A stretch of 64,000 nt of DNA from Massilia varians. GTDB lineage: Bacteria > Pseudomonadota > Gammaproteobacteria > Burkholderiales > Burkholderiaceae_D. This document shows, in pieces, positions 14,334 through 41,939 of the stretch (its first letter is position 1; the number at the start of each line of letters is the position of its first letter). Under the pieces are notes generated by a model. The model saw nothing but the letters and a program-made list of their open reading frames with translations, made no database searches and was not told where the DNA came from. Position numbers and translations under genes: made by a program. The DNA is taken from contig NZ_AP026966.1 of NCBI RefSeq assembly GCF_027923905.1, positions 2,233,001 through 2,297,000 of the forward strand. Direction: 5' to 3'.

Positions 14334-14345
14334 AATGCCTCTGTG

Positions 14346-18984: not shown

Positions 18985-19299
18985 ATGAAGACATTGAAGA
19001 AGACGTACACCCCGGAACTCAAGGAAGAAGCCGTGAAGCTGGTGCTGGCGCAGGGTTTGTCCATTGAGCAGGCAGCAGCACGAGTAAGTATCCCAAAAGG
19101 GACGCTGGCCAATTGGGTAGCAGCCGCCAAACGCGGGCCGGCCGCAACAGCAGCCCCTGGAAGCCGCTCTGTGGCCGAGCTGGAAGCGGAGAACGCGAAG
19201 CTGCGCAAGCAGCTAGCCCAGGCAGAGATGGAGCGGGACATCGTAAAAAAAGCGGCGGCGTACTTTGCGCAGGAGTCGCTGCCAAGTACGCGTGGATAA
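18985..19299 (+). CDS. IS3-family transposase OrfA
   Basis: This 104-residue protein has a helix-turn-helix that binds the IS ends (YTPELKEEAVKLVLAQGLSIEQAAARVSIPKGTLANWV) and a C-terminal leucine-zipper coiled coil (SVAELEAENAKLRKQLAQAEME). A run of seven A followed by G at 19245-19251 lies near its end, a standard -1 frameshift site that would fuse it to OrfB. A ribosome site AGGAG precedes the ATG. Confidence 0.93.
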   Translation: MKTLKKTYTPELKEEAVKLVLAQGLSIEQAAARVSIPKGTLANWVAAAKRGPAATAAPGSRSVAELEAENAKLRKQLAQAEMERDIVKKAAAYFAQESLPSTRG

Positions 19300-19304
19300 A
19301 GACA

Positions 19305-20165
19305 ATGCGACTCGATTTCCCTGGCTATCCTGTGAAGCTGATGTGCCAGGTATTGGACGTCTCGCGCAGCGGCTACTACAACTCGCTGCAGGCCAAGCCA
19401 TCGACACGCGAGCAGGAAGACGCTCGGTTGAAAATCCTGATTACGGCAGTGCATCGGCAAACCCGAGAGACCTACGGGGTGCCTCGGATAAAGCACGAGC
19501 TTGCTGCACAGGGTCATGAAGTTGGTCGCGACCGTGTGCGCCGACTTCGCCAGGAGCTCAATCTGCGCTGCAAACAACGGCGCAAATTCATCGCAACGAC
19601 AAACTCGAATCACAACCTTCCCATCGCTGAGAACTTGCTGGAACAGCGGTTCGCGCCGAACAGGCCTGACGAAGTGTGGGTGACCGACATCACCTATATC
19701 TCCACTGCCGAAGGCTGGCTGTATCTTGCCGGCGTAAAGGACGTTTTTACCTGCGAGATCGTCGGCTACGCGATGGGCGAGCGCATGACGCAGGAGCTGA
19801 CGACGCAGGCCTTGTGGCGCGCCGTGAGCCACAAGCGGCCGGCGCCAGGGCTGATCCATCATTCGGACCGTGGAAGCCAATACTGCGCCCATGCCTACCA
19901 GGAGCTGGTGGCGCAGTTCGGCATGCGCGCGTCGATGTCGCGCCGCGGGAACTGCTATGACAACGCGCCGATGGAGAGCTTCTGGGGCACGCTGAAGAAT
20001 GAGCTTGTTCATCATCGCCGCTATGCCACCCGTGCTGAGGCAAAGGCCTCGATTCAGGAATACATTGAAATTTTCTACAACCGACAGCGGCGCCATTCCC
20101 GCATCGGCTTTGTTCCGCCAGCGTTGTTCGCCGAATCCTTCAGCGAACAGCCGCAGGCGGCTTAA
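19305..20165 (+). CDS. IS3-family transposase OrfB (DDE integrase core)
   Basis: This 286-residue frame is probably made mostly as an OrfAB fusion through the A7 slippery site at 19245-19251; the frame is open upstream of the ATG. It carries an HTH_21 region (RQTRETYGVPRIKHEL) and the rve catalytic core with all three acidic residues: VWVTDITYI, HHSDRGSQY and NAPMESFWGTLKNE. It is intact to the stop 33 bp before the right IS end. Confidence 0.93.
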   Translation: MRLDFPGYPVKLMCQVLDVSRSGYYNSLQAKPSTREQEDARLKILITAVHRQTRETYGVPRIKHELAAQGHEVGRDRVRRLRQELNLRCKQRRKFIATTNSNHNLPIAENLLEQRFAPNRPDEVWVTDITYISTAEGWLYLAGVKDVFTCEIVGYAMGERMTQELTTQALWRAVSHKRPAPGLIHHSDRGSQYCAHAYQELVAQFGMRASMSRRGNCYDNAPMESFWGTLKNELVHHRRYATRAEAKASIQEYIEIFYNRQRRHSRIGFVPPALFAESFSEQPQAA

Positions 20166-25069: not shown

Positions 25070-26449
25070 TCAGCGGGCGTAGCTCGGCCGTTTCGGATCG
25101 TAGGTCCAGCCCGGGAACAGGCAGCGCATCGCGACCGCGTCGTCGCGCGCGCCCTGCGCCACCTGCTGGTACAGGGCGTGCGCCGCCGCGATGCGCTCCA
25201 GGTCCGGCTCGATGCCCAGACCCGGCCGGCTCGGTACGGCGACCGCGCCGTCGACGATCTGCAAGGGCGCGCGGGTCAGGCGCTCCTCGCCCTCCTGCCA
25301 GATCCAGTGGGTGTCGATCGCCGTGATGCGTCCCGGCGCGGCCGCCGCCGCATGGGTGAACATGGCCAGCGAGACGTCGAAGTGGTTGTTCGAATGCGAG
25401 CCCCAGGTCAGGCCCCAGTCGTGGCACAGCTGGGCCAGGCGCACCGACCCCTGCATTGTCCAGAAGTGCGGATCGGCCAGCGGGATGTCGACCGCACCCA
25501 GCAGGTGCGAATGGCCCATCTGGCGCCAGTCGGTGGCGACCATGTTGGTGGCGGTGCGCACGCTTGTTGCGCGCTTGAACTCGGCCATGATCTCGCGGCC
25601 CGAATAGCCCTGTTCCGGGCCGCAGGGGTCTTCGGCATAGGCCAGCAGGTGGCCGTATTGCTTGCCGAGCGCGATCGCATCACGCAGCGGCCAGGCGCCG
25701 TTCGGGTCGACCGTGCAGCGCGCATCGGGACGGCGCCGCTTGATGGCGGCGATCGCCGCCAGCTCGTCCTGCAGCGCCATCACGCCGCCCTTGAGCTTGA
25801 AGTCCTGGAAGCCGTAGCGCTCGGCGGCCGCGTCGGCCAGGTCGGCGATCGCCTCGGGCGTCAAGGCTTCGCGCCCGCGCATGGCGTACCAGTCGTCGCC
25901 GGCGCGCTGGGCGGCGTAGCGGAGGCCGGTGCGCCGGCTGTCGCCGACATAGAACAGGTAGGCCAGCATCGGCACGTGGCTACGCTGCTGGCCGCTGCCG
26001 AGCAGTTCGCAGACCGGCACGCCGAGGTGCTGGCCCAGCAGGTCGAGCAGCGCCGCCTCGACGGCGGTGATGACGTTGTCGAGCCGCAGGTTGATCTCGT
26101 GCGGCTGGCGCAGCACGGCCGCTTCGGCGGCCGAGCTGACCTGGTGCTGCATGCTGCCCGTGTGTGCGCCGTGGCTGGCGCGGATCGCGTTCAGGGTGCG
26201 CTGGTAGCGGGCCACCTGGCTGCCTTCGACCAGCGCCACCGCCTTCTGCAGCGCCTTCAGGATGCCCTCGCCGCCGGGCACCTCGCCGATGCCCACGCGA
26301 CCGTCGCTGGACTCCAGCAGCACCAGGTTGCGGATGAAGAAGGGGCCATGGGCGCCGCACAGGTTGAGCAGCATGCTGTCGCGGCCCGCCACGGGGATGA
26401 CGCGCATGGCGGTGACGGTGGGGCTCGAGGAGCGAAGCAGATGGTTCAT
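25070..26449 (-). CDS. Glucarate dehydratase family protein (GudX-like, enolase superfamily)
   Basis: A 459-residue cytoplasmic enolase-superfamily protein of the glucarate dehydratase group. That group removes water from D-glucarate to give 5-keto-4-deoxyglucarate. It keeps the catalytic KLKG, the metal-binding segments DPNGAW, EDPCG and [10 protein letters not shown], and the SHSNNHFD motif. It differs from the second copy (35133-36473) in a stretch near residues 100-130, where the usual [17 protein letters not shown] is replaced by an unrelated segment ([20 protein letters not shown]). That suggests a changed substrate pocket, as in GudX. Its start overlaps the GH115 stop (ATGA), so the two are co-translated. 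Confidence 0.85.
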
Positions 26450-29214
26450 GGATCGGATGGCGGCATGCCGTAGTAGTGGGGGGCGCCGTCCATGACGACG
26501 TCGATGCGGTCGAGCACGACGCCGGGATCGAGCGCGTACACGCGCAGCCTGTGCACGCCGGGCGCGAGCCGGGCCAGCGCGCGGCTGCGCACCGCCGTGT
26601 TGGACAGGACGTTGCGCTTCCATTCGTCGCTGCGGCCGACCGTGGTGTAGTCGAGCGTCTCGATGGGCCCGTCGTCGAGCTGGACGGCGATGCGCAGCCG
26701 GTGCTCGGCGCTGAGGGCGTGCACGGGCACCGCGACGAAACGCAGCAGGGCGCCGCCTTCGCTGCGGGTCTGGAAGCGGTACTCGAGCGGGGTGGCCTTG
26801 CCGAGCGATGCGGCGCCGCGCCTGGGCAGGTCGAGGCGCGCGCGCATCGCCTTGCCTGACGTGCCCAGGCCAGGTTGCGGCTCCCAGTCGCTGCCGGCTG
26901 CGGCGGCGCCGGCGGCCAGACTCACGATGCGCTCGCGCTCGCCTGGTAGGCCCTGCGCGTGCGCGCCCTGTACCTGGGCGTTCAGCCTGAGCGGCTTGCC
27001 GCCGCATTCGAGCGCCAGCTGCGCCTTGTCCGAACCGTCGTAGTCCAGCGTGATGCGCTGCTCGTAGCCATTGGACGCGTCCAGCCTGCCGCCTTCGAGC
27101 CGGGCGCGTAGGCCTTGCGCGCCGGAGACCGACCACGCCGCCGCTTCGCCGCCATAGCTGACCAGGGTGACGGTACGGCTGGCCTGGTGGCCGGCCGGCA
27201 GCACCAGCGTGTTCGCCTCGGCCGAATGCGGCGCCGGATAGACCAGGCCGCAGCCGCGCCGCGCGGACGGCGTCCAGGACGGGTAGACCGGTTCGGCGAA
27301 CACCGGAAGCCGGCGCGGCGCGATGTCCATCATGTGGGCCCACTTGCCCCCGCCGAGCGCGTTGTAGGCGGCGGCGTCGCGCAGCAGCGCCGCATGCGCC
27401 TCCCGTGCCTGGCGGGTATACAGGGCGGAGGAGGGGCGCTGCTGCAGCGCGTACTCGCCGGCCAGCTCCAGCTTCAGGATGCGTTCGTTGAGCCTGGCGC
27501 TGGAGCGCACCGGGTAGAGCACCAGCTGGAAGTAGGCGTCGCGCAGCTCGGCGGGCAGGCCCGGTTCGACCGCCTCGGCGCGCGCCACCAGCGCGGCGTA
27601 CTGCGCCAGGCGCCGCTCGGCCTCGTCGCCGCCGCTGCGCACGTACTCGGTGGCGCGCACCGGCCGGGTCGGTTCGGTCTGGCTCCAGCCCATGAACTCG
27701 GGGCGGCGCTCCCAGGCCAGCCGGTAGTATTCCTGCTGGATGGCCGCGATCTCCGGACCGTGTTCGGCGCCGAAGACCTGCTCGGCCCAGGCGCCCAGGT
27801 GACGCGCAGGGTCCTGGCGCAGCACGCCCGCATCGAACGCGGCGTCGAGGAAGTACTGGGTCAGGTACTCGTTGGGCTTGATGTCGCCCACGTTCACGAC
27901 CCACATGCGGCGCGCGCCCGCGCTCCAGGCGCGCTCGAGCTGGTCGCGGATCAGGGCCGGGTGGGTCGTGCCCAGCCACAGGTAGTCGTGCGGCCGGCCC
28001 CAGTACGAGAGGTGGTAGTAGATGCCGTTGCCCCCGGCCCTGGCGCGCTCCTTCGCCGTGCCAAGCTGGTGCAGGTAGCCGTAGTTATCGTCCGGCCACG
28101 CCAGGGTGACGTCGCCGGGCACCTCCAGCCCGGCGTTGTAGTAGTCCAGTACCTCCTTGTACATCGTAAACACGGTGGGGATGGTCGATGCTGGCTTGCC
28201 CAGGCTGCGGGCCAGCATGTCGCGCTGCAGCCCGATGACCTGCTGCACCGTGTCGCGTGCCTGCTGCGGGCCGGCCGCGCCTTCCATGGCCGAGTCGTGC
28301 ACGCCGCGCAGGCCCAACGTATACACGTTCTCGAAACCCTTGACCTGGTCGATGCGCGCCTGCCAGTAGCCGAGCAGGCGCGCGCGGTTGCTGAAGAAGT
28401 TGAACGGGCCGTCCGACTTCTTCCATTCGCCGACGTTGTTGCGCATCATCGGCTCGGCATGCGAGGTGCCGACCAGGATCGCGTAGTCGTCCGCCACCTG
28501 GGCGTTGCCGGGCACCGTGTAGAAGGCGCGGGTGGAATCGTGCATGGCCGGCCAGACCAGGTTGGCCTTCAGGCGCCACATCAGTTCGAACACGCGCGCG
28601 TAGGTGGCCGGGCCGATGTCCCCGGCCGGGTCGTAGGTCTTGGCGGCCCAGGGCTGCAGGCCCCAGTCCTCGTCGTTGATGAAGATGCCGCGCCAGGCCA
28701 CGGATGGAGCGGGGGACAGGCGGCGCGCCCCATCCAGGGACAGGCCGCTGCGGCGGCGCGGCTTGACGTCGGCCCACCATTCCCAGGGCGAGACGCCCAG
28801 TTCGCGTGTGGCGTCCACCACGCCGTACACGGCGCCGCGGCGGTCGGCGCCGGCGACCAGCAGCACGCTGCGGCCGTCCACCGTGCCGGCGGCGCGGAGA
28901 TAGCGTTCCTGCTGGCCGGCGAGCGGGGCCAGGTCGACGCCCATCGCCTGCGCGACCCGCGTGACCAGGGGCGAACCGTTGGCACCGATCACGATGCAGC
29001 GGCCGCGGCACGCGTCCAGGCTGTCGCTGCGCCTGCTGGTCAGGCCGGTGAGCTGCTGCAGGTCGCGCGCGAGCAGATCGCCGGCAATGCGGAAAGTCGG
29101 TCCGGCCTCGGTGACGATGTCGGGCAGGCGCTGGCCGGCATCCAGAGGGAAGGGCGCGGCATGGAGCAGGCCGGGTGCGAGCAACAGGCTCAGGGCGAGA
29201 AGGTGTGGTGTCAT
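26446..29214 (-). CDS. Glycoside hydrolase family 115 (alpha-glucuronidase), secreted
   Basis: This 922-residue protein has a signal peptide (residues 1-19, [10 protein letters not shown]). It carries the GH115 core from about residue 95 ([22 protein letters not shown], then [17 protein letters not shown] and NLVWPAMHD) and the central [16 protein letters not shown] and [24 protein letters not shown] blocks. A C-terminal beta domain ends near residue 920. Family members remove (4-O-methyl-)glucuronic acid linked alpha-1,2 to xylan and similar glycans. The released uronate would feed the uronate dehydrogenase / glucarate dehydratase route encoded nearby. The conserved palindrome lies 31 bp before its ATG. 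Confidence 0.92.
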
Positions 29215-29244: not shown

Positions 29245-29256
29245 CTAATGTATTAG
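29245..29256. promoter_or_regulatory. Operator palindrome, site 1 (before GH115)
   Basis: CTAATGTATTAG, flanked by GC/GC, lies just upstream of the GH115 start. It is one of five related 12-bp palindromes in the uronide locus, and the GntR regulator encoded at 29493 is the obvious candidate to bind it. Confidence 0.7.
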
Positions 29257-29383
29257 TGCATTGTAACGAGTTTATAATCAGGAATTCGTACGGATCGAAA
29301 ACGCTCAGCGAACTGAGTGACCGCGGCGTGGGGAAGAGGATCGCTCCGTCGGCGCTCGCTGGTCCGCCCTCGTTCGACCCGTG

Positions 29384-29395
29384 CTAATGTGCTAG
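29384..29395. promoter_or_regulatory. Operator palindrome, site 2 (before the GntR gene)
   Basis: CTAATGTGCTAG, the most divergent of the five sites, lies 98 bp before the chosen GntR start, in the shared intergenic region with GH115. It suggests autoregulation. Confidence 0.55.
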
Positions 29396-29492
29396 CATCT
29401 TGTCAATTCGGCAGGTGTTTTGTACATACTCTGCCGCCACGCGCCGCGTGGAGATTCGAATAACAATCATGCAGCCTTTAAAGGCTTCACCA

Positions 29493-30200
29493 ATGGAAAC
29501 AATCGCATTCAGCGGCCCGTTCACCCTCGACCGTTCGCGCCAGGCCGCGGTCCAGGTGTACGAATACCTGCGTGAGGAAATCGTCAACCTCACGCTCAAG
29601 CCCGGAACCCTCCTGTCGCGCAACGAGTTGTCGGCGCATTTCGAACTGTCCGTCACCCCGATCCGCGACGCCCTGATGCGCCTCGAGGAAGAAGGGCTGG
29701 TCGACATCTATCCGCAGCACGCCACGCGCGTGCGCGGCATCAGTATCGCCTCGGCGCGCCAGGCCCACTTCCTGCGGCTGTCGATCGAGCTCGAAGTGGT
29801 GCGCACGCTGGCCCGGAAGAACGACGCGGCCCTGGGCCAGTCCCTGCAAAGCCTGGTGCTGCAGCAGCGTGCGGCGCTCAAGGCGCGCGACCTGGAATCC
29901 TTCTACCGCGTCGACCATGCCTTTCACAAGCAGCTCTACGTCGCGGCCGAGGTCGAGGAGCTGTGGCGCCTGATGCGCCACCGCAGCGGCAACATGGACC
30001 GCCTGCGGCGCCTGCACCTGCCGCTCAACGGCAAGGCCGACCAGATCCTGAAGGACCACGCCGCCATCGCCGACGCGATCGGGCAGGGCGACGCCGCCGC
30101 GGCCGAGGCGGCGCTGCGGCGCCACCTGTCGGGCACGCTGTCGGAACTGGATGCGCTGCGCGAGCAATACCCGACCTACTGGATGCCCGGCGCGGACTGA
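29493..30200 (+). CDS. GntR-family regulator with FCD ligand domain, probable regulator of uronate utilisation
   Basis: A 235-residue protein. A winged helix-turn-helix spans residues about 18-80 (VQVYEYLREEIVNLTLKPG, SRNELSAHFELSVTPIRDALMRLEEEGLV). A helical FCD domain (about 90-220) has His/Asp positions that bind metal and acid ligands. FadR-type GntR proteins often sense hexuronates or aldarates (ExuR, UxuR and similar). The ATG at 29493 is preferred for its AAAGG site; 29469 is possible. It is surrounded by the genes it would control, and five matching palindromes lie at their starts. It probably represses until uronate or aldarate binds. Confidence 0.9.
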   Translation: METIAFSGPFTLDRSRQAAVQVYEYLREEIVNLTLKPGTLLSRNELSAHFELSVTPIRDALMRLEEEGLVDIYPQHATRVRGISIASARQAHFLRLSIELEVVRTLARKNDAALGQSLQSLVLQQRAALKARDLESFYRVDHAFHKQLYVAAEVEELWRLMRHRSGNMDRLRRLHLPLNGKADQILKDHAAIADAIGQGDAAAAEAALRRHLSGTLSELDALREQYPTYWMPGAD

Positions 30201-30257
30201 TGAGCCCTGCGCATGAATCGCCGCCCTGATTGCTGAGCTAAATTACTGAATCCCGGC

Positions 30258-33002
30258 TCAGGGCAGCAGCCCCGCCGCGCGCGCCGCCTCGTCCAGCGTG
30301 TCGCCGCCGAGCGCCATGTGCTGGATCGCCGCCAGGCCCCACTGCGCGGAGGCGTTGGTGCTGATGCCGCTCATCTCGTCGAGCGGACGCAGCACGGCCG
30401 GACCGTCGATGCGGCGCACGCCGTGGCGCGGGCTGCCGCGCTTGAGCCAGTCCGAGGCGAAGAACTCGCGCCAGGCCCGCAGCGCCAGCGTGCGGTCGCG
30501 CTCCTGGTAGGCGGCGTAGGCGGTCATGCGCGAATTCGTGTCGCTCATGCCGCGCCCGCCCGGAGCCTGTCCCAGCAGCGCCACCACCTCCTCGCGCGGC
30601 GCATTGTAGGTGCGGCAGTACTGCAGCCAGGTCTTGCGGTACTCGGGCACGTCGACCAGGGTCAGGAGCTCGGAATTCATCTCGACCACGCCGAACACGC
30701 CGTTCAGGTTGGAGAACGAAGGCTTGTCGCCGGGGCCGTGGAAGCGCCCGGTCGTGTGGTCGTAGGGCGCGCCGGCCGCGAACCAGCCGACCTTGAGTGC
30801 CGCGATGCTCTTCATGCCAGCCACGATCTTGTCGCGCCAGCGCACGTCGCCCGTGCGTTCCCACTCGGCCAGCCAGGCCGAGATCAGGGAACCCCAGACG
30901 GTGCCGAAGGAGGCGCCGACGAAGGCGTCCGGACGCGCGCCCGCCACCTTCAGCTTGCGCGCGATGTCGACCTTGTGCAGGTCCTTGTCCGAATCGAGCA
31001 GCTCGCGCATCAGGTCGCCGACGCGCTCGTCCGCCGTCAGGAAGTAATAGATGCGGCGGTAGGCCGCGTTCGAGACGCGCGGCTGCTTCGACGAATCGGC
31101 CCAGTGCTGCACCGCGTGGCGGGTGCCGAAGCCCTTGAAGGGGCCCAGGTGGTAGACGTCGACCTCGCCGGTATGGCGGGTCATCGCTTCGGCGTAGCGG
31201 AACAGGTCGGCGCGCCCGGTGCGCAGGTAGCTGTACCAGAGCCACAGGTCAGTCGACAGTTCCGAATTGTCCCAGGCGTAGCCGCCGATGTCGTAGCGCC
31301 ACATGTGGCGATCGGGGTCGTAGCTGTGCATCACGTCGCCATAGGACCAGAAGCCGTACCAGCGGTGCTGCTCGGTTTCACGCAGGTACTGGTCCAGCTG
31401 CAGGGCCAGGCGCTCCTCGATCAGCTTGCGCGCCGGGGTCCCGGCATCGACCGGGTCCCAGTCGCCGAACACCCCGCACTGATGGATGCGCTGCGGCGTG
31501 AGCGCCAGGCGCGCCGGCCGCGCGCTTTGCTCGGCCATGTCGGACAGGGCCCCGTGCGAGGGCGTCGCGCCCAGCACCCACAGCTGCAGCTCGGAGGTGC
31601 GGGCGACGCCGGTGGCCGAATCCCAGCCGGCTTCGTAGTCCTCATACGTGATGTTCAGGCCGGCGATCTGCTTCTCGTGCGTGTCCATGCCGTCTTCGGC
31701 GCGGTAGGAGCGCACGTCCATGGCGGGCGCAGAAGGCGCCCACATCCAGGCCGTCACCTCCGCCATCGGGCTGGCCGCGTTGCGCACGTCCAGCTGCACC
31801 GGGGCGCGCTGCCAGAAATCCTTCAGGCCAAGCGCGATGCCGCCCGAGGCGCCGCCGGCGTACACCAGGCCCTTGCTGCGGGTGCCGGCGTTCGCGTCGA
31901 TCCAGGCGCGCCCTGCGCGCAGGCGCTTCTGCAGGGTGAAGCCGTCCGGCGACAGCTGCGCCAGCGTGAAGTCGCCCCATTCGGGAATCCACTGCAGCCC
32001 GTCCTGCACCGGCTTGGCCATTCCGGCGAGCGGCGGCAAGGCCTGGCCGGCCACCTGGGCCGCGCGGTAGGCGTCGCCCGGGTCGCGGCGCAGGCCGGTC
32101 ACCGGCCGCACCGCCTCTCCCCAGACGCCCACGCCTTCGCCCGAGAAGCGCACGTGGCGGTCGTAGGTCTGGTCGCTCATGGGCACCTGGGCCGTCACGC
32201 CCAGGCCGGCGATGAAGTCCTGTTCCGGATTGCCGTCGTAGACGAAGGAGTGCACGATGCGCACGCTGTCCGAACCGGTATAGAAGTACAGGCGCACCGA
32301 GAACGGCAGCCAGTCGCGGCTGCCGTCGCTGTGCATGCCGTCGAACTTGACCACCGCGCGCACCGGGCCGCTCTGTTCCACCGTGACGGCAAGGAGCTTG
32401 CTGGTGAAGGCCTGGCGCGCGACGCTGCCGCTGCGCTCCGGTTGGGCGCCGTCCTGGCGCAGCGCCACCAGTTTCATGTTCTGCATGCTTACCCGGCCGG
32501 CGCGGGCCGCGCTGCGCACCAGCACCTCGCCGCGGCGCGGCAGCATCCATGCCAGTTCGCCGGCCGTGACCAGGATGCCGTCCGCGCTTTCCTTCACCGA
32601 GACCGTGCCGCGCGCGGGTGCGCCGCGTTCCAGCCTGTAGCCGTCGGCAGCGCCGTTGTCCGCGACCCCGCCGGCGACCGCGTGCGCGGTCCACTTCAGC
32701 GAACCGTCCGGCCAGTAGGCCAGCGGCCAGGATTGCATGGCCGGGCCGTTCGCGCCCAGCGTGAAGTCGAGCCGTTTGTTCGCCGGCAGGCGCAGCGTGC
32801 CGCGCGGCCAGGGCACGCCCAGGGTGCAGCCCTCGAAACGGGCCGGGGCATGTCCGTCCAGCCAGCGCAGCACGGTCTCTGACACGGGGAGCGCCCTCGC
32901 GCCGGTGTTGGCCGTCACCGCGCCGGCCAGGCCGGGGAAGGAGGCAAGGAAGGGAAGGGCGCTGGCCGAGCGAAGGAAATGTCTGCGCGATGAAAGGGGC
33001 AC
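30258..33002 (-). CDS. Tat-exported PcRGLX/YetA-like protein (exo-rhamnogalacturonan lyase family)
   Basis: This 914-residue protein has a twin-arginine signal (SSRRHFLRSASALPFLA). It then has an N-terminal RIFT-barrel segment (LRWLDGHAPARFEGCTLGVPWPRG and AYWPDGSLKWTAHAV) and a long catalytic-type toroid region (HRWYGFWSYGDVMHSYDPDRHMWRYD, GEVDVYHLGPFKGFGTRHAVQHW). These match the PcRGLX/YetA group, related to a fungal PL26 exo-lyase acting on rhamnogalacturonan. In bacteria the actual substrate is unproven. The folded-state export fits a cofactor or slow folder. Palindrome site 3 precedes the gene, so it belongs to the uronide regulon. Confidence 0.8.
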   Translation of the reverse strand: MPLSSRRHFLRSASALPFLASFPGLAGAVTANTGARALPVSETVLRWLDGHAPARFEGCTLGVPWPRGTLRLPANKRLDFTLGANGPAMQSWPLAYWPDGSLKWTAHAVAGGVADNGAADGYRLERGAPARGTVSVKESADGILVTAGELAWMLPRRGEVLVRSAARAGRVSMQNMKLVALRQDGAQPERSGSVARQAFTSKLLAVTVEQSGPVRAVVKFDGMHSDGSRDWLPFSVRLYFYTGSDSVRIVHSFVYDGNPEQDFIAGLGVTAQVPMSDQTYDRHVRFSGEGVGVWGEAVRPVTGLRRDPGDAYRAAQVAGQALPPLAGMAKPVQDGLQWIPEWGDFTLAQLSPDGFTLQKRLRAGRAWIDANAGTRSKGLVYAGGASGGIALGLKDFWQRAPVQLDVRNAASPMAEVTAWMWAPSAPAMDVRSYRAEDGMDTHEKQIAGLNITYEDYEAGWDSATGVARTSELQLWVLGATPSHGALSDMAEQSARPARLALTPQRIHQCGVFGDWDPVDAGTPARKLIEERLALQLDQYLRETEQHRWYGFWSYGDVMHSYDPDRHMWRYDIGGYAWDNSELSTDLWLWYSYLRTGRADLFRYAEAMTRHTGEVDVYHLGPFKGFGTRHAVQHWADSSKQPRVSNAAYRRIYYFLTADERVGDLMRELLDSDKDLHKVDIARKLKVAGARPDAFVGASFGTVWGSLISAWLAEWERTGDVRWRDKIVAGMKSIAALKVGWFAAGAPYDHTTGRFHGPGDKPSFSNLNGVFGVVEMNSELLTLVDVPEYRKTWLQYCRTYNAPREEVVALLGQAPGGRGMSDTNSRMTAYAAYQERDRTLALRAWREFFASDWLKRGSPRHGVRRIDGPAVLRPLDEMSGISTNASAQWGLAAIQHMALGGDTLDEAARAAGLLP

Positions 33003-33078
33003 TGTCGGTCTCCGTGCCGGCGCTGCCGCTGGGCGGCGCGCCGGTCTGTCGATGAGGTGAAAGCGAGCGCGGGCGCTG

Positions 33079-33090
33079 CTGATATATTAG
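33079..33090. promoter_or_regulatory. Operator palindrome, site 3 (before the PcRGLX/YetA-like gene)
   Basis: CTGATATATTAG, 76 bp before the minus-strand start. Paired with site 4, 147 bp away, across the divergent intergenic region. Confidence 0.7.
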
Positions 33091-33237
33091 TTGCTGACGA
33101 TCATACTAGTTCGCCTCTTGCCCCTGGTCGATATGCGACGCTCAATTACTCAAGTCGATGACTGAACGCGGCCACGCCATCCGATCACCAGATTGCGTGC
33201 ATCGACGGCGATACGCCCTGTACACTTATGTGGCATA

Positions 33238-33249
33238 CTAATATATCAG
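33238..33249. promoter_or_regulatory. Operator palindrome, site 4 (before the beta-glucuronidase-gudD operon)
   Basis: CTAATATATCAG, only 27 bp before the ATG of the GH2 gene. That position would overlap the transcript start, which suits repression. Confidence 0.7.
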
Positions 33250-33276
33250 CGCCCGTCAACCGACTACCCTGTCCCC

Positions 33277-35109
33277 ATGAAAACACTTCTCGCAGCATTC
33301 TGGATCTTCATCGGCGCGCTCGCCGGCCTGCCGGCCGTGGCGGACGAGCTGCGGCCCGCGTTCCTGCTCACCGGCGCACAGCAGCGCGACGGCCAGGACC
33401 TGTCGGGCCAATGGACCTATTCGAAGGACCTGTACCGCACCGGCCTCACCGACATCAACGGCTGGGTGGCCAAGTCGCGCATGCAGCGCTACCGCGACCT
33501 CGACGTCGCCGCCATCGAGGCCAGGGGCGGAGTGGATTTCTTCGAGTTCCACCTCGACCGCGGCCCGATCATCAACGTGCCGGGCGCCTGGAACGCGGCG
33601 GCCCCGGAACTGCGCTACTACGATGGCCTGATCTGGTTCCAGCGCAAGTTCAACGCGCAGGCGCTTGGCGGCAAGCGCGCCTTCCTGCGCTTCGAGGCGG
33701 TCAACTACCGCGCCTGGGTCTACCTGAACGGCAAGGAAATCGGGCGCCACGAGGGCGGCTTCACGCCTTTCGTGCTGGAAGTGACCGAAGCCCTGCGCAG
33801 CGGCCAGAACCGCCTGGTGGTCGGCGTCGACTCGAGCCACGACGCCCAGTCGATCCCGACCTCCATCACCGACTGGGACCTGTACGGCGGCATCACCCGT
33901 CCCGTGCGTTTCATCACCACCCCGACGACTTTCATCGACGACGCCATGGTCCAGCTGCGCCCGGACGGCCGCATCGCAGGCGAAGTGCGCCTGCAGGGCC
34001 CGCATGCGGCGAACCAAGTGGTCAGCGTGGCGATCGGCGCGCTCGCCACCGCGCGCGCCACCACTGACGCCCATGGCCGCGCCAGGTTCGAGCTGGCCGC
34101 GCCCAGGGGCCTGGAGCGCTGGTCGCCCGAGAAGCCGACCCTGTACGAGGTGCGCTTTGCCGCCGCCGGCGACGCCGTGCGCGACCGTGTGGGTTTCCGC
34201 ACCATCGCCGTCAAGGGCAACCAGATCCTCCTGAACGGCAAACCCATCTGGTTGCGTGGGATCTCGCTGCACGAGGAAGAGTTCGGGCCCAACCCGGCGC
34301 GCAACATGACGGAAACGGCCTCGCGCGCGCTGCTGCACGAGATCAAGCACGGCCTCGGCGCGAACTACGTGCGCCTCTCGCACTACCCGCATTCGGAAAC
34401 CACGGTGCGCCTGGCCGACGAGATGGGCCTGCTGGTCTGGAGCGAGATACCGGTGTACTGGACGGTCGACTGGGACAACCCGGCCGTGCTGCGCAAGGCG
34501 CTCGCCATGCAGGCCGAGACCATCTACCGCGACCGTAACCGCGCCTCGGTGATCATGTGGAGCGTCGGGAACGAGACCCCGGTGTCGCCTTCGCGCACGC
34601 GCTTCCACAGCGCCATGGCGGACAACGTGCGCCAGCTCGATCCTTCCCGCCTGGTGAGCGCGGCCCTGCTGGTCAAGCAGGACGGCGACGCGCTGGCGAT
34701 CGACGACCCGCTGGTCGGCAAGCTCGACGTGCTGGCGGTGAACATCTACGCCGGCTGGTACGGTTCCGACACGCTCGATGCGGTCGCCAAGCTCAAGTGG
34801 AAGGTGCCGGCGGACCGCCCGCTGATCCTGTCCGAGTTCGGCGCCGACGCGCTGGCCGGCTACCGCAATGACGGCATGAAGAAGTTCACCGAGGAGTACC
34901 AGGCCGAGTACTACCGCCAGACCCTGGCCATGGCCGATGCGATCCCGACCCTGCGCGGCATGTCGCCCTGGATCCTGAAGGACTTCCGTTCGCCGCGCCG
35001 CGAGCACCCGGTGTTCCAGAACGGCTGGAACCGCAAGGGCATCGTGTCCGAGCTTGGGGTACGCAAGCAGGCCTTCGGCGTGCTGGCCGATTACTACCGC
35101 GGCAAATAA
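33277..35109 (+). CDS. Glycoside hydrolase family 2, beta-glucuronidase
   Basis: A 610-residue exported protein (signal [22 protein letters not shown]). GH2 order is seen: sugar-binding sandwich (about 60-220, NVPGAWN), immunoglobulin-like domain, then TIM barrel from about 315. The acid/base Glu is in SVGNET (Glu433) and the nucleophile Glu in SEFGAD (Glu520). An N-x-K motif (Asn585-Arg-Lys587) aligns with the Asn/Lys pair that reads the uronic carboxylate in E. coli UidA, so beta-glucuronidase is a specific and well-supported call. The start at 33277 gives the signal peptide. gudD follows 23 bp later, so glucuronate release and breakdown are in one operon. Confidence 0.9.
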
Positions 35110-35132
35110 ACCAACACCTACCTGGAGTCATC

Positions 35133-36473
35133 ATGAATTCGAACATCAGCGGCGCCCCGGTCATTACCGCGATGCGGGTCGTCCCCGTCGCCGGCCAGGA
35201 CAGCATGCTCATGAACCTGAGCGGCGCCCACGGCCCCTGGTTCACCCGCAACGTCTTGGTGCTGCTCGATAGCGCCGGCAACACCGGCCTGGGCGAAGTG
35301 CCGGGCGGCGAATCGATCCGCCAGACCCTGGAAGACGCGGGTCCGCTCATCATCGGCAAGTCGCTGGGCGACTACAACGCCGTCCTGAACGCCATGCGTA
35401 CCAGCTTCGCCAGCCGCGACGCCGGCGGACGCGGCCTGCAGACGTTTGACTTGCGCACCACCATCCACGCGGTCACCGCGGTGGAGTCGGCCTTCCTCGA
35501 CCTGCTGGGCCAGTTCATGAACGTGCCGGTCGCCGCCCTGCTGGGCGAGGGCCAGCAGCGCGCCGCGGTGCCGATGCTGGGCTACCTGTTCTATGTCGGC
35601 GACCGCACGCGCACCGAACTGCCCTACCGTAGCGAGGCGGACGCGGACGATGCCTGGTTCCGGCTGCGCAATGAAGCGGCCATGACGCCCGAGGCGGTGG
35701 TGGCCCTGGCCGAAGCGGCGCAGGCGCGCTACGGCTTCCAGGACTTCAAGCTCAAGGGTGGCGTTCTGTCCGGCGACGCCGAGATGGAAGCGGCCGTGGC
35801 CCTGCACGAGCGCTTCCCGCAGGCGCGCGTCACGCTCGACCCGAACGGCGCCTGGTCGCTGCGCGAGGCGGTGCGCCTGTGCCGCGACAAGCACGCGGTG
35901 CTGGCCTATGCCGAAGACCCCTGCGGCGCCGAGAACGGCTTCTCGGGCCGCGAGGTGATGGCCGAGTTCCGCCGCGCCACCGGATTGATGACGGCCACCA
36001 ACATGGTCGCCACCGACTGGCGCCAGATGGCCCATTCGATCCAGCTGCAGTCGGTCGACATCCCGTTGGCCGACCCGCACTTCTGGACCATGCGGGGTTC
36101 GGTCCGGGTGGCCCAGCTGTGCGAGATGTTCGGCCTGACCTGGGGCTCGCACTCGAACAACCACTTCGACATCTCGCTGGCCATGTTCACCCACGTCGGC
36201 GCCGCGGCGCCGGGCCGGGTGACGGCGATCGACACCCACTGGATCTGGCAGGACGGCCAGCGCCTGACCAGGGAGCCGCTGCGCATCGAAGGGGGAGAGG
36301 TCAAGGTGCCGCGGCGTCCGGGCCTGGGCATCGAGCTGGACGTCGATGCGCTGGAGGCGGCGCACCAGGCCTACAGGAACATGGGCCTGGGCGCGCGCGA
36401 CGACGCGGTGGCGATGCAGTACCTGATTCCGGGCTGGAAGTTCGACAACAAGCGGCCTTGCATGCTGCGTTGA
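35133..36473 (+). CDS. gudD: D-glucarate dehydratase
   Basis: A 446-residue enolase-superfamily enzyme, very close to E. coli GudD along its whole length. It starts with [20 protein letters not shown] and keeps [20 protein letters not shown]. Catalytic lysines are in KLKG (Lys206/Lys208); metal ligands in DPNGAW, EDPCG and NMVATDWRQ; catalytic His in SHSNNHFD. It turns D-glucarate into 5-keto-4-deoxy-D-glucarate. Glucarate is the product of uronate dehydrogenase (gene at 37983) acting on glucuronate. A GGAG ribosome site precedes the ATG. The aldolase or decarboxylating steps that follow are not in the window. Confidence 0.95.
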
Positions 36474-36511
36474 CGACACGTTGTGGTAACGCATGCTTTA
36501 GTCGAACGCGC

Positions 36512-36540
36512 GGACGGCGAAGCCGTCCACCCTACGAGGA
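36512..36540. repeat. REP-like hairpin between convergent genes
   Basis: GGACGGCgaaGCCGTCC is followed by ACCCTACG, and the ending is shared with the larger element at 50525-50630. It sits between the gudD and esterase stops and may end both transcripts. Confidence 0.55.
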
Positions 36541-37986
36541 TCACAAGGACGGCGGATTCTTCGGAATCGGGTGTTCCGAACGGAAGGGGACGGCGGGCAG
36601 CCCGGCCCCATTGACCAGGTTGGGCGTGGCCGCCTCGTGCCAGCCGAAACGCACCGAGGTCGGTTCGTTCACGAGCGGACTGCCGACCAGCACCTCGCTG
36701 CCCCGGATCGTGGCCGTCGCCGGATGGTAGCGGCCATCGCTGCCGGCGATCTCGAACCAGTCCAGCGGCTTGCCGTCGCGCGCGGCCAGCCCCTGCGCAT
36801 GGTCGAAAGCGAGGATCGCCTGGCTGCCGGCGAAGCGGATCGCGCGGTAGCTTGGTCCGTCGGCTTCGATACCGGGGCGCTCATAGGTGCGTGCCAGTGC
36901 CAGGCTGGCCAGGCGCAGCCCGACGCTCTGCTTGTCGCGCGGATGGATGTCGCGCAGGTCGTCGGCCAGGTCGGTGGTGACGATCATGCCCGTATGCGCG
37001 ATGCGCAGCGCGCCTGCCTGGGCTTCGCGCAGGCGCGGCAGGGACTCCGGCCCCCCGACGCCCTGGTCCGCGCGCAGCACCGAATACAGGTGCGGCGCCA
37101 GCTGCACGTAGTAGAAGGGCAGCTTCGCCCCGAAGGCGCGGCGCCAGCCGCCGATCAAGGCTTCCATCTTTGCCGTGTAGGCGGGACCGTCGTCGGTATG
37201 CAGGATGTTCGATTCGCCCTGGTACCACAGCGCGCCCTTGAGTCTGAAGGGCGCCAGGCCGGCGATCATGCCGTTGTACAGCGAGGCCGGCTTGTCCTTG
37301 ACCGCGGGCGGCAGGTTCACTTGCCCGAGCAGGTCGGATGGCGTCCACGATTCGATGCGGGTGCCGCCCCAGGTGGCGTCGATCAGGCCGACCGGCGTTC
37401 CCAGTTCCTGCCGCAGACGCCGCCCGAAGCTGTAGGCGGCCGCCGAGAACTGGGTGGCAAGGAGGGCGGCAGGCGTGCTGCGCACCCAGGCCCCGCCGAC
37501 GTCCTCGCCCGGCTGCGCGGCCTTGCGCCTGGCCACCTTGAACAGGCGAATGTCGGGCTGCTCGGCGCCGGCAAGCGCTTCCTCCGAGCCGAAGGTGGGC
37601 AGCTGGCCCTTCTTGTCGCCGAAGGGCTTCTCCATGTTCGACTGGCCCGAGGCCAGCCATACTTCGCCGACCAGCACGTCCTGGACGACGATCTCCTTGC
37701 TGGTGCCGCGCACCGACAGCACGCCCGGCGTCGGCGGCGCCTGGCTCAGGTCGAGGTGGAGGCGCCAGCGCCCCTCGCTGTCCGCGACCGTGCTCAGCGC
37801 CTGGTTCCCGAAGCGCACCGAGACCGTCTCGTTGGGCGCCGCCCAGCCCCAGACCGGCACCCAGGCCGCGCGCTGCAGCACCATGTGGTCGGACAGGATG
37901 CCGGGCAGGCGCACCTCGGCCCAGGCGGGGAGCGCCAGCAGCGCGAACGCGGCCAGGCCGGCCGCGCGGGCATGAAGGGAGTTCAT
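36541..37986 (-). CDS. Secreted sialate O-acetylesterase-type SGNH esterase
   Basis: A 481-residue protein with a signal peptide (FALLALPAWA). SGNH/SASA features are the nucleophile block GQSNME, the oxyanion segment LWYQGESN and the late DIHPRDK containing the catalytic Asp-x-x-His. An N-terminal beta-sandwich (LPGILSDHMVLQR) is typical of this family, whose characterised members include xylan acetylesterases (CE20) and sialate esterases. In a plant-glycan locus, removal of O-acetyl groups from xylan or pectin-like oligosaccharides is the likely role. It overlaps the uronate dehydrogenase gene by 4 bp and so belongs to the same operon. Confidence 0.88.
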   Translation of the reverse strand: MNSLHARAAGLAAFALLALPAWAEVRLPGILSDHMVLQRAAWVPVWGWAAPNETVSVRFGNQALSTVADSEGRWRLHLDLSQAPPTPGVLSVRGTSKEIVVQDVLVGEVWLASGQSNMEKPFGDKKGQLPTFGSEEALAGAEQPDIRLFKVARRKAAQPGEDVGGAWVRSTPAALLATQFSAAAYSFGRRLRQELGTPVGLIDATWGGTRIESWTPSDLLGQVNLPPAVKDKPASLYNGMIAGLAPFRLKGALWYQGESNILHTDDGPAYTAKMEALIGGWRRAFGAKLPFYYVQLAPHLYSVLRADQGVGGPESLPRLREAQAGALRIAHTGMIVTTDLADDLRDIHPRDKQSVGLRLASLALARTYERPGIEADGPSYRAIRFAGSQAILAFDHAQGLAARDGKPLDWFEIAGSDGRYHPATATIRGSEVLVGSPLVNEPTSVRFGWHEAATPNLVNGAGLPAVPFRSEHPIPKNPPSL

Positions 37987-38792
37987 GCGGGGTACTTCGG
38001 TCCGATGTTCAGGAAGGGACCGCCCTGCAGGTAGGTGGTGAGATCGTCCGCCGGCGGATACGCGACTTCAAGGGGCAGCTTGTCCTGGAATTGCGCCGAG
38101 CTGTCCTTGGCGACGAAGGCCAGGTGGCGCGAATGGCGCGCGTCCCACCAGCTGCCCGGGTTGCTTGAAACGCCGAAGGCGATGGTGTGGCCGACGCGCG
38201 GCGTCACCAGGGAGCGGCGCAGCAGTTCGACCAGGTCGTCCAGGCTGAGCCAGGTGACCATCTGGCGGTGGGTGGCGGGCTCCGGGAAGCAGAAGCCGAT
38301 GCGCAGGCACACGGTCTCGATGCCGAAACGGTCCCAGTAGTAGCGCGACAGGTTCTCGCCCCAGACCTTGGACAGGCCGTAGTAGCCGTCGGCGCGCGGC
38401 AGCATGCCGGCGTCGACCCGCTCGCTGGTCGGGTACATGCCCATCGTGTGGTTGCTGCTGGCGAAGACCACGCGCCGAATGCCCAGCTTGTGCACGGCTT
38501 CGTACAGGTTGACCATGCCGAGGATGTTGGCCTGCATGATCGGCGCGAATTCGACTTCGGTCGAGACGCCGCCGAAGTGCAGGATCGCGTCCACGCCTTC
38601 GCACATGCGCATCACCTGCTCGCGGTCGGCCAGGTCGCACTGCACCACTTCCTCGTTCGGGCCGGCTGGACCGATGTCGGCCACGTCGGCCAGGCGCACG
38701 ATGTCGGCGAATGCATGCAGGCGTTCGCGCAGGCGACGGCCTAGGTTGCCGCCGGCGCCGGTGAAGAGGATGCGTTTGAATGGTTTGCTCAT
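37983..38792 (-). CDS. udh: Uronate dehydrogenase (NAD-dependent, SDR family)
   Basis: A 269-residue short-chain dehydrogenase that oxidises glucuronate or galacturonate to the aldaro-lactone. Rossmann motif TGAGGNLG (11-18), ADVADIGPAGPNEEVVQCDLAD (the Udh-specific region), active-site Ser in FASSNHTMGMY, and Tyr138-x3-Lys142 in YYGLSK. Family-specific GSWWDARHS appears near residue 215. It feeds glucarate to GudD. Palindrome site 5 lies 139 bp upstream in the divergent region shared with the GH2 gene. Confidence 0.93.
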   Translation of the reverse strand: MSKPFKRILFTGAGGNLGRRLRERLHAFADIVRLADVADIGPAGPNEEVVQCDLADREQVMRMCEGVDAILHFGGVSTEVEFAPIMQANILGMVNLYEAVHKLGIRRVVFASSNHTMGMYPTSERVDAGMLPRADGYYGLSKVWGENLSRYYWDRFGIETVCLRIGFCFPEPATHRQMVTWLSLDDLVELLRRSLVTPRVGHTIAFGVSSNPGSWWDARHSRHLAFVAKDSSAQFQDKLPLEVAYPPADDLTTYLQGGPFLNIGPKYPA

Positions 38793-38930
38793 GGTGCTCG
38801 AGACCCTATTGGACTGGTTGAAACGGATGCGCCATTACCGGCGCATTCGCGGCGGGTGTCAATGTCCGGTCGCCGAACGCTCACGATCTTGAGTAATTGG
38901 GCGAATGCGGAACAAGGGCGCGCTAAGCTA

Positions 38931-38942
38931 CTAATATATTAG
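38931..38942. promoter_or_regulatory. Operator palindrome, site 5 (between udh and GH2)
   Basis: CTAATATATTAG is a perfect 12-bp palindrome and the best match to the consensus. It lies 37 bp before the GH2 start and 139 bp before udh, so it could control both directions. Confidence 0.75.
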
Positions 38943-38978: not shown

Positions 38979-41939
38979 ATGTTCCGTTTCGCTCCGCCGA
39001 GCCTGTGCGCTTTCGCGCTGGCCGCGTTCTGCGCTGCCGCCCCGGCCCACGCCGCCCGCGCCGCATACGATTTCAACCCCGGCTGGAAACTGATGGTCGG
39101 CGACCCCGCGGGCGCGTCCGGGGTCGGGTTCGACGACAAGGCCTGGAAACCCGTGACCCTGCCGCGCGCCTGGAACGAGGACGACGCCTTTGCCAAGGAC
39201 ATCGTCGACCATTCAACGGGCATCGCCTGGTACCGTAAGCGCTTCAGCATCAAGGACCTCAAGCCGGGCCAGAAGGTCTTCCTCGAATTCGAAGGCGCGC
39301 GCCAGGCGGCGGAAGTGTTCGTCAACGGCCGCCGCATCGGCCTGCACGAGAACGGCGTCACCGCCTTCGGCTTCGAGATCGGGGCCGCACTGGTCAAGGG
39401 CGAGAACCTGATCGCGGTGCGCACCGACAACCGCTGGGACTACAAGGAGCAGGCTAGCGGCCAGCGCTACCAGTGGGCCGACCGCAATTTCAACGCCAAC
39501 TACGGCGGCCTGCCGAAGAACGTGCGCCTGCACGTGACCGGGCCGCTGTACCAGACCCTGCCCCTGTATTCGAACCTGGGCACCACCGGGGTCTACGTGT
39601 ATGCGCGCGACTTCGACATCGCGGGACGCACGGCGACGATTGCCGCCGAATCCGAGGTACGCAACGACGGCGGGCAAGCGCGCAGCTTTACCTACGAGGT
39701 CGAAGTACGCGACAAGGACGGCAAGACCGTGGCGCGCTTCGCCGCGCCGGCCCAGACCCTGGCGCCCGGCGCCACCACGGTCGCCAGGGCCAGCGCGCGG
39801 GTAAAGAACCTGCACTTCTGGAGCTGGGGCTACGGCTACCTGTACGACGTGGTCACAATCCTGAAGGTCGACGGCAAGCCGCTCGACCGCGTCACCACGC
39901 GCACGGGTTTTCGCAAGACCGAGTTCGGCCGGGGCATGATCAAGCTGAACGAGCGCGTGCTGCAGATGAAGGGTTATGCCCAGCGCACCTCGAACGAATG
40001 GCCGGCGATCGGCTTGTCGGTCCCGAGTTGGTTGAGCGACTACAGCAATGGCCTGGCGCTCGAGAGCAACGCCAACCTGATCCGCTGGATGCACATCGCG
40101 CCGTGGAAGCAGGACGTCGAGTCGCTCGACCGCATCGGCCTGATGCAGGCCATGCCCGCCGGCGACTCGGAGAAGGATGTCGACGGGCGCCGCTGGGGCC
40201 AGCGCGTGGAAACGATGCGCGACGCCATCGTCTACTACCGCAACAACCCGAGCATCCTGTTCTACGAGTCCGGCAACAAGGGCGTGAGCGCCGAACACAT
40301 GGCGGAGATGAAAGCACTGCGCGACCGCTACGACCCGCATGGCGGGCGCGCAGCCGGCAGCCGCGAGATGCTGAGCAGCGCGCTGCAGCAGGTGTCCGAG
40401 TACGGCGGCGAGATGTTGTACATCAATAAGAGCGCGCGCATGCCGATGTGGGCCATGGAGTACGCGCGCGACGAGGGTGCGCGCAAGTTCTGGGACGAGC
40501 TCAGTCCGCCTTTCCACAAGAACGGCGACGGCCCGCCGCACAAGGGCCAGCCGGCGCCCGGGTACAACCACAACCAGGACAGCTTCGCGATCGAGGCCGT
40601 GCGCCGCTGGTACGACTACTGGCGCGAGCGCCCGGGCACCGGAACGCGGGTCTCGAGCGGCGGCGTCAACATCATCTTCTCGGACAGTAATACCCACCAC
40701 CGCGGCGCCGAGAACTACCGCCGCAGCGGCGAGGTCGACGCCATGCGCATCCCCAAGGATGCCTTCTACGCCCACCAGGTGATGTGGGACGGCTGGGTCG
40801 ACGTCGAGCGCCCGCGCGCCCACATCGTCGGCCACTGGAACTACACGCCCGGCACGGTCAAGCCGGTGCACGTGATCTCGAGCGCCGAGACGGTCAAGCT
40901 GACCCTGAACGGCAGGGAGGTCGGCAGCGCACGCCAAAGCGAGCGCTTCCTGTTCACGTTCGACAAGGTGAGCTGGGAAGAGGGCGAGCTGAAGGCGGTT
41001 GGCTACGACGCCAAGGGCAGGCAGGTCTGCGCGACCAGCATCGTCACCGCCGGCAAGCCGGTGGCGCTGCGCCTGAAGCGCATCGCGTCGCCGCACGCGC
41101 TGCGCGCCGACGGCGCCGACCTGGCGCTGGTCGAGGTCGAGGCGGTCGATGCGAAGGGCCGCCGCAACCCGGTCGCGCTGGGCACCGTGCACTTCGACCT
41201 GGACGGCCCGGCCGAGTGGCGCGGCGGTATCGCGCAGGGGCCCGGCAACCACGTGCTGGCGCGTTCGCTGCCGGTCGAGGGCGGCGTCAACCGTGTCCTG
41301 GTGCGCAGCAGCACCCAGCCGGGTCAAATCACCCTGCGTGCCCGCGCCGATGGCCTGGCGCCGGCGACGCTGCGCTTCGCGTCAACGGCGGTGCAGGTCG
41401 AGGGCGGCCTGGCGGCGCTGCCGGCGCCGCCGCCGTTGCGCCTGGACCGCGGCCCGACCCCGGCTACGGCGTCCTTCACGGTCTCGCGCATCGCGGTGCC
41501 GGTGGCCTCGGCGCAGGCGGCCAGCAACGCCGAACAGGCCGCGCGATCCTTCGACGACGATGAAGCCACCGGCTGGACCAGCAAGGCCGGCGAAGCGGCG
41601 GAGATCACCTACCAGTTGGCGCGCCCGGCGCTGCTGCGCGAAGTGACGCTCAAGCTGGCCGGCTGGCGCGAACGCAGCTATCCGCTGCGCGTGTTCGTGG
41701 ACGGCGTCGAGGTCTGGCGCGGCACCACGCCGAAGAGCCTCGGCTACGTCACGCTGCCATTCGAGGCGCAGCGCGGCAGCCGGGTACGGATCGCGCTAGA
41801 TGGCCAGGCGAGTGATGCCGGTGCGATCCAGCTGACCGAGGTGGCGGACCAGGCCAATACCGACACCGGCGCCCAGCGCGTCGCGCGCTCGCTGCTGTCG
41901 ATCGTCGAAGCCGAGTTCTACGAGTTTCCGGAATCCTGA
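38979..41939 (+). CDS. Large secreted GH2-family protein with an atypical acid/base site
   Basis: The product has 986 residues with a signal peptide (ending APAHA). The GH2 layout is a sugar-binding sandwich (about 25-180, WNEDDAF and FEGARQAAEVFVNGRRIG), an Ig-like domain, a TIM barrel (about 310-600), a DUF4982-like domain (about 615-690), further beta domains and a C-terminal discoidin-like segment (about 835-965). Where GH2 enzymes have Asn-Glu, the sequence is ESGNKG (Asn433-Lys434), so the standard acid/base Glu is missing and Glu430 lies four residues earlier. It may be a divergent subfamily with a shifted catalyst or a binding-only relative. Substrate is not assigned. Confidence 0.83.
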   Translation: MFRFAPPSLCAFALAAFCAAAPAHAARAAYDFNPGWKLMVGDPAGASGVGFDDKAWKPVTLPRAWNEDDAFAKDIVDHSTGIAWYRKRFSIKDLKPGQKVFLEFEGARQAAEVFVNGRRIGLHENGVTAFGFEIGAALVKGENLIAVRTDNRWDYKEQASGQRYQWADRNFNANYGGLPKNVRLHVTGPLYQTLPLYSNLGTTGVYVYARDFDIAGRTATIAAESEVRNDGGQARSFTYEVEVRDKDGKTVARFAAPAQTLAPGATTVARASARVKNLHFWSWGYGYLYDVVTILKVDGKPLDRVTTRTGFRKTEFGRGMIKLNERVLQMKGYAQRTSNEWPAIGLSVPSWLSDYSNGLALESNANLIRWMHIAPWKQDVESLDRIGLMQAMPAGDSEKDVDGRRWGQRVETMRDAIVYYRNNPSILFYESGNKGVSAEHMAEMKALRDRYDPHGGRAAGSREMLSSALQQVSEYGGEMLYINKSARMPMWAMEYARDEGARKFWDELSPPFHKNGDGPPHKGQPAPGYNHNQDSFAIEAVRRWYDYWRERPGTGTRVSSGGVNIIFSDSNTHHRGAENYRRSGEVDAMRIPKDAFYAHQVMWDGWVDVERPRAHIVGHWNYTPGTVKPVHVISSAETVKLTLNGREVGSARQSERFLFTFDKVSWEEGELKAVGYDAKGRQVCATSIVTAGKPVALRLKRIASPHALRADGADLALVEVEAVDAKGRRNPVALGTVHFDLDGPAEWRGGIAQGPGNHVLARSLPVEGGVNRVLVRSSTQPGQITLRARADGLAPATLRFASTAVQVEGGLAALPAPPPLRLDRGPTPATASFTVSRIAVPVASAQAASNAEQAARSFDDDEATGWTSKAGEAAEITYQLARPALLREVTLKLAGWRERSYPLRVFVDGVEVWRGTTPKSLGYVTLPFEAQRGSRVRIALDGQASDAGAIQLTEVADQANTDTGAQRVARSLLSIVEAEFYEFPES

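Follow-up and report, generated by a model that had tools for sequence, protein, structure and literature searches.

Among the regulators of sugar-acid use described so far, UxuR of Geobacillus stearothermophilus is a GntR protein of the glucuronate and alpha-glucuronidase cluster, and GguR is said to be a GntR-family regulator of galactarate/glucarate and hexuronate genes. The passages on GguR in PMC5507952 assign to this member of the GntR family the control of galactarate/glucarate genes and, in one Halomonas, the Udh, Gli and Gci genes as well; the Halomonas regulons given in those passages include Gli, Gci, TctABC and UxuPQM, with no polysaccharide enzymes named there, and a passage of PMC6353982 cites Bouvier et al. 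2018 (J Bacteriol) on GguR. Here we analyze a uronide locus within a 64,000-nucleotide stretch of the Massilia varians genome (contig NZ_AP026966.1, positions 2,233,001 to 2,297,000; hereafter the window), in which five 12-bp sequences, sites A to E, lie around a gene for a GntR protein with an FCD domain at 29469-30200. Patterns in the sequence of this and related genomes make it highly probable that the five sites are operators of this regulator, controlling glucuronate-releasing enzymes together with uronate oxidation. A literature search on GntR proteins with glucuronate, glucuronoxylan, glucarate, GH115 or Massilia, the main GguR paper being outside its scope, returned no description of such a regulon, and a search with the motif string gave unrelated matches only.

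An earlier note on this DNA had described five related palindromes in gene-start regions. All five 12-mers occur exactly where it placed them (Table 1), every one precedes a likely start, and none falls within the genes of the locus. As palindromes they are less uniform than had been proposed, with self-complementarity perfect in E (12/12 positions), nearly so in A, C and D (10/12 each) and only half in B (6/12). Site B has 3 mismatches to the core CTAATATATTAG; it is therefore a weak site that a genome scan alone would miss, and its credibility comes from the block GCTAATGTGCTAGCATCTTGTCAA, which amid otherwise diverged DNA is identical in Massilia sp. BSC265 (L034; L-numbers denote fetched DNA stretches and G-numbers genomes) and differs by two changes in M. 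alkalitolerans (L033).

The same note had held chance placement to be unlikely on the basis of the consensus CTRATRTRYYAG, which at one mismatch or fewer does match 12 times in the window, counted by strand, against an average of 1.76 over 100 shuffles, all of them below 12. Across the genome (5.58 Mb, one contig) the unaltered consensus gives 28 strand matches against 8 for the reversed control, made up of 8 locus sites, 1 site beside a MarR-family gene, 14 copies of CTGATGTGCCAG and 5 of CTGATGTACCAG. The last two, 19 of the 28, are GC-rich words outside the locus, one of which (window 19338) falls in a long open reading frame (ORF) at 18687-20096, and CTRATRTRYYAG was rejected as a search tool because it is too loose. 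The core was revised to CTAATATATTAG, which in relatives extends to CACTAATATATTAGTG. At one mismatch or fewer, CTAATATATTAG occurs at only 5 places in the genome, where a model from the window's dinucleotides predicts 0.25: these are A, C, D and E, and position 631338 beside the MarR gene. The argument from rarity thus holds, with four of five places in the locus, although the consensus first offered for it does not. At up to two mismatches the core performs no better than its reversed control (19 vs 17 per strand), and places with two mismatches number 13 elsewhere in the genome, some inside ORFs, besides the second half of a tandem at 631 kb. There was no match to the 16-bp form of the operator in this genome, so only the 12-bp core is kept there.

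Linkage of the motif to the regulator was examined in 41 orthologous gntR genes from 3 plasmid, 24 and 13 genome loci, L036 holding two genes. From 27 loci, this footprint left out L057-L059 (26-37% identical, partial). L077, which duplicates L046, was also removed, longer stretches of the same places (L064-L077) took over from the short loci L019-L032, and in one source search 3 records were used among 5 listed, 1024 having matched. Within 450 bp upstream, 28/41 orthologues (49-59% identical) carry CTAATATATTAG with no or one mismatch, the best match being exact in 18, at one mismatch in 10, at two in 4 and at three or more in 9. Among 888 random 450-bp pieces of the same loci there were 0 exact matches, 4 at one mismatch and 2 at two, and some of these six may be true sites of neighbouring genes. 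When 200 shuffled 12-mers were drawn and 6 skipped as too motif-like, 191 of the remaining 194 matched no region and 3 matched one. The conserved block around the 28 sites is longer than the core and reads, with minor variation, TTAAA(G/A)CACTAATRTATTAGTG(C/T)GTCAA, which indicates that the operator in relatives is the 16-bp palindrome CACTAATATATTAGTG or more. Searching by motif rather than by protein, CACTAATRTATTAGTG was found at 7 places in 399 Burkholderiales genomes (reversed control 0), and every one of the 7 has, at a distance of 47-163 bp, the matched part of a gene with 49-56% identity to the window GntR; the DNA of one locus, L118, was already in the first set as L052, and the other six are new. 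Finally, among 145 genomes of the family, exact CTAATRTATTAG is present in 10/13 with an orthologue (E at most 1e-45) vs 12/132 without (Fisher p = 1.7e-7, a value that ignores relatedness). Footprint, motif-first scan and co-occurrence all support the choice, already made in the earlier note, of the GntR/FCD protein as the binder.

Close relatives point the same way. The closest named relative of the window GntR, 97% identical, is in M. alkalitolerans, and there and in BSC265 the sites stand as conserved blocks in diverged intergenic DNA. Site A has one change in each, site C is identical in both, and the site D 12-mer is identical before GH2a in both. In BSC265 the sites precede GH115 (one change from A), gntR, PcRGLX and GH2a. 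In M. alkalitolerans, GH115 has sites at 5653 and, further up, 5790, with two mismatches each; others lie at 14174 before PcRGLX, at 18285 before GH2a and at 14296 in the upstream region of a TonB receptor ORF (14512-18138), while the best match upstream of gntR has four mismatches. M. yuzhufengensis has one site between gntR and gudD. In G133 an exact site precedes PcRGLX-GH2a 224 kb from gntR, with a second GntR copy on another contig, and in G125 an exact site precedes PcRGLX-GH2a on a different contig from gntR. The sites therefore track genes while gene order and spacing vary.

The mechanism we propose is a simple one. A GntR dimer would bind CTAATATATTAG or, at its own promoter in most relatives, the 16-bp palindrome CACTAATATATTAGTG; bound, it would probably repress, and it would be released once a sugar acid occupies the FCD domain. 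Four starts have their operators 28-76 bp ahead of them, which fits repression, and the window regulator is probably autoregulated. Release would switch on jointly the enzymes for stripping glucuronic-acid-type residues off plant polysaccharides (GH115, GH2a, GH2b, PcRGLX and the esterase), the oxidative part of uronate breakdown (udh and the two gudD genes) and gntR itself, with site E presumably serving udh and the esterase as well as GH2b. The effector is most likely a uronate, an aldarate or a keto-deoxy acid derived from them, although, given the uronate, glucarate and L-arabinonate genes beside relatives of the window GntR, it could also be an aldonate. Rarity of the sites, their conservation and their linkage to regulator orthologues are matters of observation, from which binding, repression and effector are what we infer. 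The protein itself is an FCD GntR (PF00392 56.8 bits, cut-off 27; PF07729 78.2 bits, cut-off 24.3). In FCD structures one Asp and three His bind metal and ligand, and in the alignment D141 and H145 are present in 43/43 rows and H189 and H211 in 42/42 rows with a letter, all four aligning with the same residues in 3fms; their retention fits an acid effector.

A tree of 44 rows, whose inner forks are partly unresolved, groups the window GntR into an Oxalobacteraceae clade of 13 rows (support 99/96). GH115, GH2a, GH2b, PcRGLX, the esterase or a gudD at least 59% identical were matched next to the regulator in this clade only, although in its members L067 and L076 none of them was matched in the stretches fetched. 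Outside the clade, 17/29 orthologue rows lie near a gudD-like gene of ~35% identity, and in Acidovorax (L056) a TctC-type receptor lies between the site and the gudD-like gene. Neighbour genes across the tree suggest that a regulator of sugar-acid dehydratase pathways may have gained polysaccharide enzymes in one clade.

Several observations weigh against the five sites being operators of a uronate-responsive GntR. First, in 11/29 rows outside the clade the divergent gene is 74-100% identical to the L-arabinonate dehydratase of L069 (NCBIfam call at 1103 and 1090 bits, cut-off 882, for the two copies scored), a gene found also in L067, inside the clade, and in 4/7 motif-first loci, so that a uronate effector is not a given. 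Second, 9/41 orthologues have no upstream site within 2 mismatches. For four of the nine (L033, L035, L064, L065) the stretch contains a site within one mismatch at another place, and one, the second gene of L036, is the downstream member of a pair; for L055, L074, L075 and L076 nothing within two mismatches was found anywhere in the fetched stretch. Third, of the 12 family genomes with the exact motif and no orthologue, 5 have it beside a MarR gene and 1 (G097) beside the glucuronate isomerase gene UxaC, and the other six are unexplained, three having a GntR match in the 8-kb stretch that is weak (25-42%). Lastly, scanning the three intergenic regions for promoters gave no consensus promoter in any of them, and the placement of operators over promoters was judged by eye. 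A change in the recognition helix, D59->E in L074 and L076, was considered as the cause of missing sites and dropped, as an exact site does occur in G125, the genome that holds L076, though on a different contig. As a separate observation, at L069:3888-7834 and L050:7434-9978 a regulator orthologue is divergent to L-arabinonate dehydratase, adjoined by an aldehyde dehydrogenase or RraA-like gene, and the aldehyde dehydrogenase of L069 has as its best model alpha-ketoglutaric semialdehyde dehydrogenase, below that model's cut-off; these are probably genes of a pentonate pathway under the same operator.

An alternative explanation could be that the GntR protein is an activator, or that the sites are promoter elements conserved for RNA polymerase and not for a regulator. 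In relatives the palindrome does lie within TTAAA-N..GTCAA, the other strand of which reads TTGAC-N17-TTTA; by eye, the divergent gene could have its promoter here, with the operator between the two promoter elements. Promoters do not, however, have a strict palindrome of 12-16 bp as a feature of their spacers, and this palindrome tracks one regulator family. Activation as such may still apply, and the explanation as a whole has an outside chance. It is less likely still that the sites belong to the MarR-family regulator at 631 kb, which lies next to a bestrophin gene. In its favor, a near-identical tandem palindrome, CTAACATATTAG and CGAACATATTAG with starts 23 bp apart, lies before it, between the MarR and bestrophin genes (C1:631338-631372, L001), and its relatives (57-83% identical) are found beside exact CTAATRTATTAG in 5 family genomes. 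Yet the MarR gene adjoins the bestrophin gene in both genomes checked (this one and G063), proteins of the window locus were unmatched in the five 8-kb stretches, all 7 sites of the Burkholderiales scan adjoin GntR orthologues, and the window sites are single and not tandem. Least probable of all, by a little, is that the local GntR uses another site and that the binder is an FCD-GntR paralogue of a UxaC cluster (31-32% identical to the window GntR, in G097 the only match at E 1e-20), which lies ~11 kb from a double site CTGATATATCAG / CTAATATATTAG beside UxaC in G139 and G097, since in the window genome no UxaC was found and the best match to the paralogue is the local GntR itself. The motif may be common to a wider FCD group, but with neither UxaC nor the UxaC-cluster paralogue found in this genome, the candidates left are the local GntR and, at lower odds, the 631-kb MarR. 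At L088:3828-3839 in G057, where no GntR match was found at E 1e-20, exact CTAATATATTAG precedes the gene of a TctC-type solute receptor.

The gene order of the locus is gudD2-GH115 (-), gntR (+), PcRGLX (-), GH2a-gudD (+), esterase-udh (-), GH2b (+) and TonB receptors (Table 1). It reads as a locus for release of glucuronic or galacturonic acid from plant polysaccharide, followed by oxidation by udh and dehydration by glucarate dehydratase. The ATG of gudD2 overlaps the GH115 stop (ATGA), which makes it likely that the two form one operon under site A. At C1:1386287-1388662 lies yet another glucarate dehydratase gene, the third, with 60-62% identity to gudD; an insert of ~1 kb with an IS481-type transposase ORF divides it into two parts. 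A second 12-mer, CTTGAGTAATTG, is shared by the regions upstream of operators C and E (window 33143-33154, minus strand, and 38888-38899, plus strand), in the same orientation relative to the genes at both. It has 3 exact copies in the genome vs 0.05 expected per strand, the third overlapping an ORF, and a 2-mismatch copy at the C position in M. alkalitolerans, and is possibly the site of a second regulator. Elsewhere in the window, Type VI secretion genes lie at 12022-18255 (VgrG parts, DUF4123 and a Tle1-like phospholipase domain).

Table 1. Candidate operators and genes of the uronide locus, in window coordinates.
Feature	Coordinates	Strand	Remarks
Candidate operator A, CTAATGTATTAG	29245..29256		30 bp before GH115 ATG (GH115 on minus strand)
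Candidate operator B, CTAATGTGCTAG	29384..29395		73 bp before gntR ATG at 29469
Candidate operator C, CTGATATATTAG	33079..33090		76 bp before PcRGLX GTG (minus strand)
Candidate operator D, CTAATATATCAG	33238..33249		28 bp before GH2a ATG at 33278; GH2a-gudD downstream
Candidate operator E, CTAATATATTAG	38931..38942		between udh (-) and GH2b (+); 36 bp before GH2b ATG
gudD2, second glucarate dehydratase-like	25070..26449	-	TIGR03247 674.9 bits, below cut-off 828.7
GH115 xylan alpha-1,2-glucuronidase	26446..29214	-	PF15979 E 6.4e-120; BtGH115A 5by3 E 2.2e-174
GntR/FCD regulator, proposed binder	29469..30200	+	PF00392, PF07729; start 29469 or 29493
PcRGLX-type (exo-rhamnogalacturonan-lyase-like) protein	30258..33002	-	PF21346, PF21345, PF19501
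GH2a, beta-glucuronidase/beta-galacturonidase-like	33278..35109	+	solved relatives 6d8k, 7vqm, 6d1n
gudD, glucarate dehydratase	35133..36473	+	TIGR03247 849.6 bits, above cut-off 828.7
SASA-family carbohydrate esterase	36541..37986	-	PF03629
udh, uronate dehydrogenase	37983..38792	-	3rft Uronate dehydrogenase E 1.6e-76
GH2b, beta-galactosidase-like	38979..41939	+	6hpd E 3.9e-147
TonB-dependent receptor	42203..46009	+	PF07715

The regulon does not take in kdgD. The earlier note had predicted that the sites would extend to KDG genes, and for kdgD this fails: the gene lies away from the locus at 5.23 Mb, with genes for an SMP-30/gluconolactonase family protein and an MFS transporter, and was rejected as a member because its 19-kb stretch has no site within 3 mismatches and has an FCD regulator of its own. 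That FCD-GntR gene (L084:9960-10880) has TTGTATG..CAT elements before and behind it, and by eye its operator is of a different type.

These findings have several implications. A pattern in sequence becomes a regulator-operator pair open to testing, with its targets listed, in a Massilia that degrades plant polysaccharides, and CACTAATATATTAGTG becomes a marker for finding loci of the same regulator across other Burkholderiales. One regulator family with one operator word and differing targets (L-arabinonate dehydratase, gudD-like genes, polysaccharide enzymes) offers a clean case for the study of target switching, and for operator crosstalk this genome supplies a natural test in the MarR that carries a near-identical palindrome. 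There is perhaps an even chance that the broader picture is of a separate, unnamed Burkholderiales FCD-GntR group that has CACTAATATATTAGTG as its operator. In this picture the ancestral regulator would have served a single sugar-acid dehydratase next to it, an L-arabinonate dehydratase in some lineages and a gudD-like enzyme in others; one Oxalobacteraceae clade would have recruited it to control enzymes of the glucuronoxylan and pectin type as well as a TonB receptor, and the same palindrome would be used by an unrelated MarR protein within the same bacterial family.

Compared with known systems, the window regulator resembles UxuR as a GntR protein linked to the release of glucuronic acid from xylan, but UxuR is of another phylum and goes with GH67 rather than GH115 and with an isomerase pathway. 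The likeness to GguR, in the passages on it in PMC5507952, lies in the GntR family and in a regulon with galactarate/glucarate genes and, in one Halomonas, Udh; sites at GH2a-gudD (D), GH115-gudD2 (A) and udh/GH2b (E) fit a regulon of this type. The difference is that many relatives of the window GntR, the 11/29 rows outside the clade and one inside, adjoin L-arabinonate dehydratase instead, which speaks mildly against its being GguR. A class sample of 369 genomes, with at most 7 candidates scored per genome, gave no regulator match at E 1e-40 beyond the window genome. FCD regulators of the NanR, LldR, CsiR and PhnR types (NCBIfam) share the GntR and FCD architecture, but their models match the window regulator weakly, all far below curated cut-offs. 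Within this range of systems, the window regulator is best classed with the FCD-GntR regulators of sugar-acid use, a known kind.

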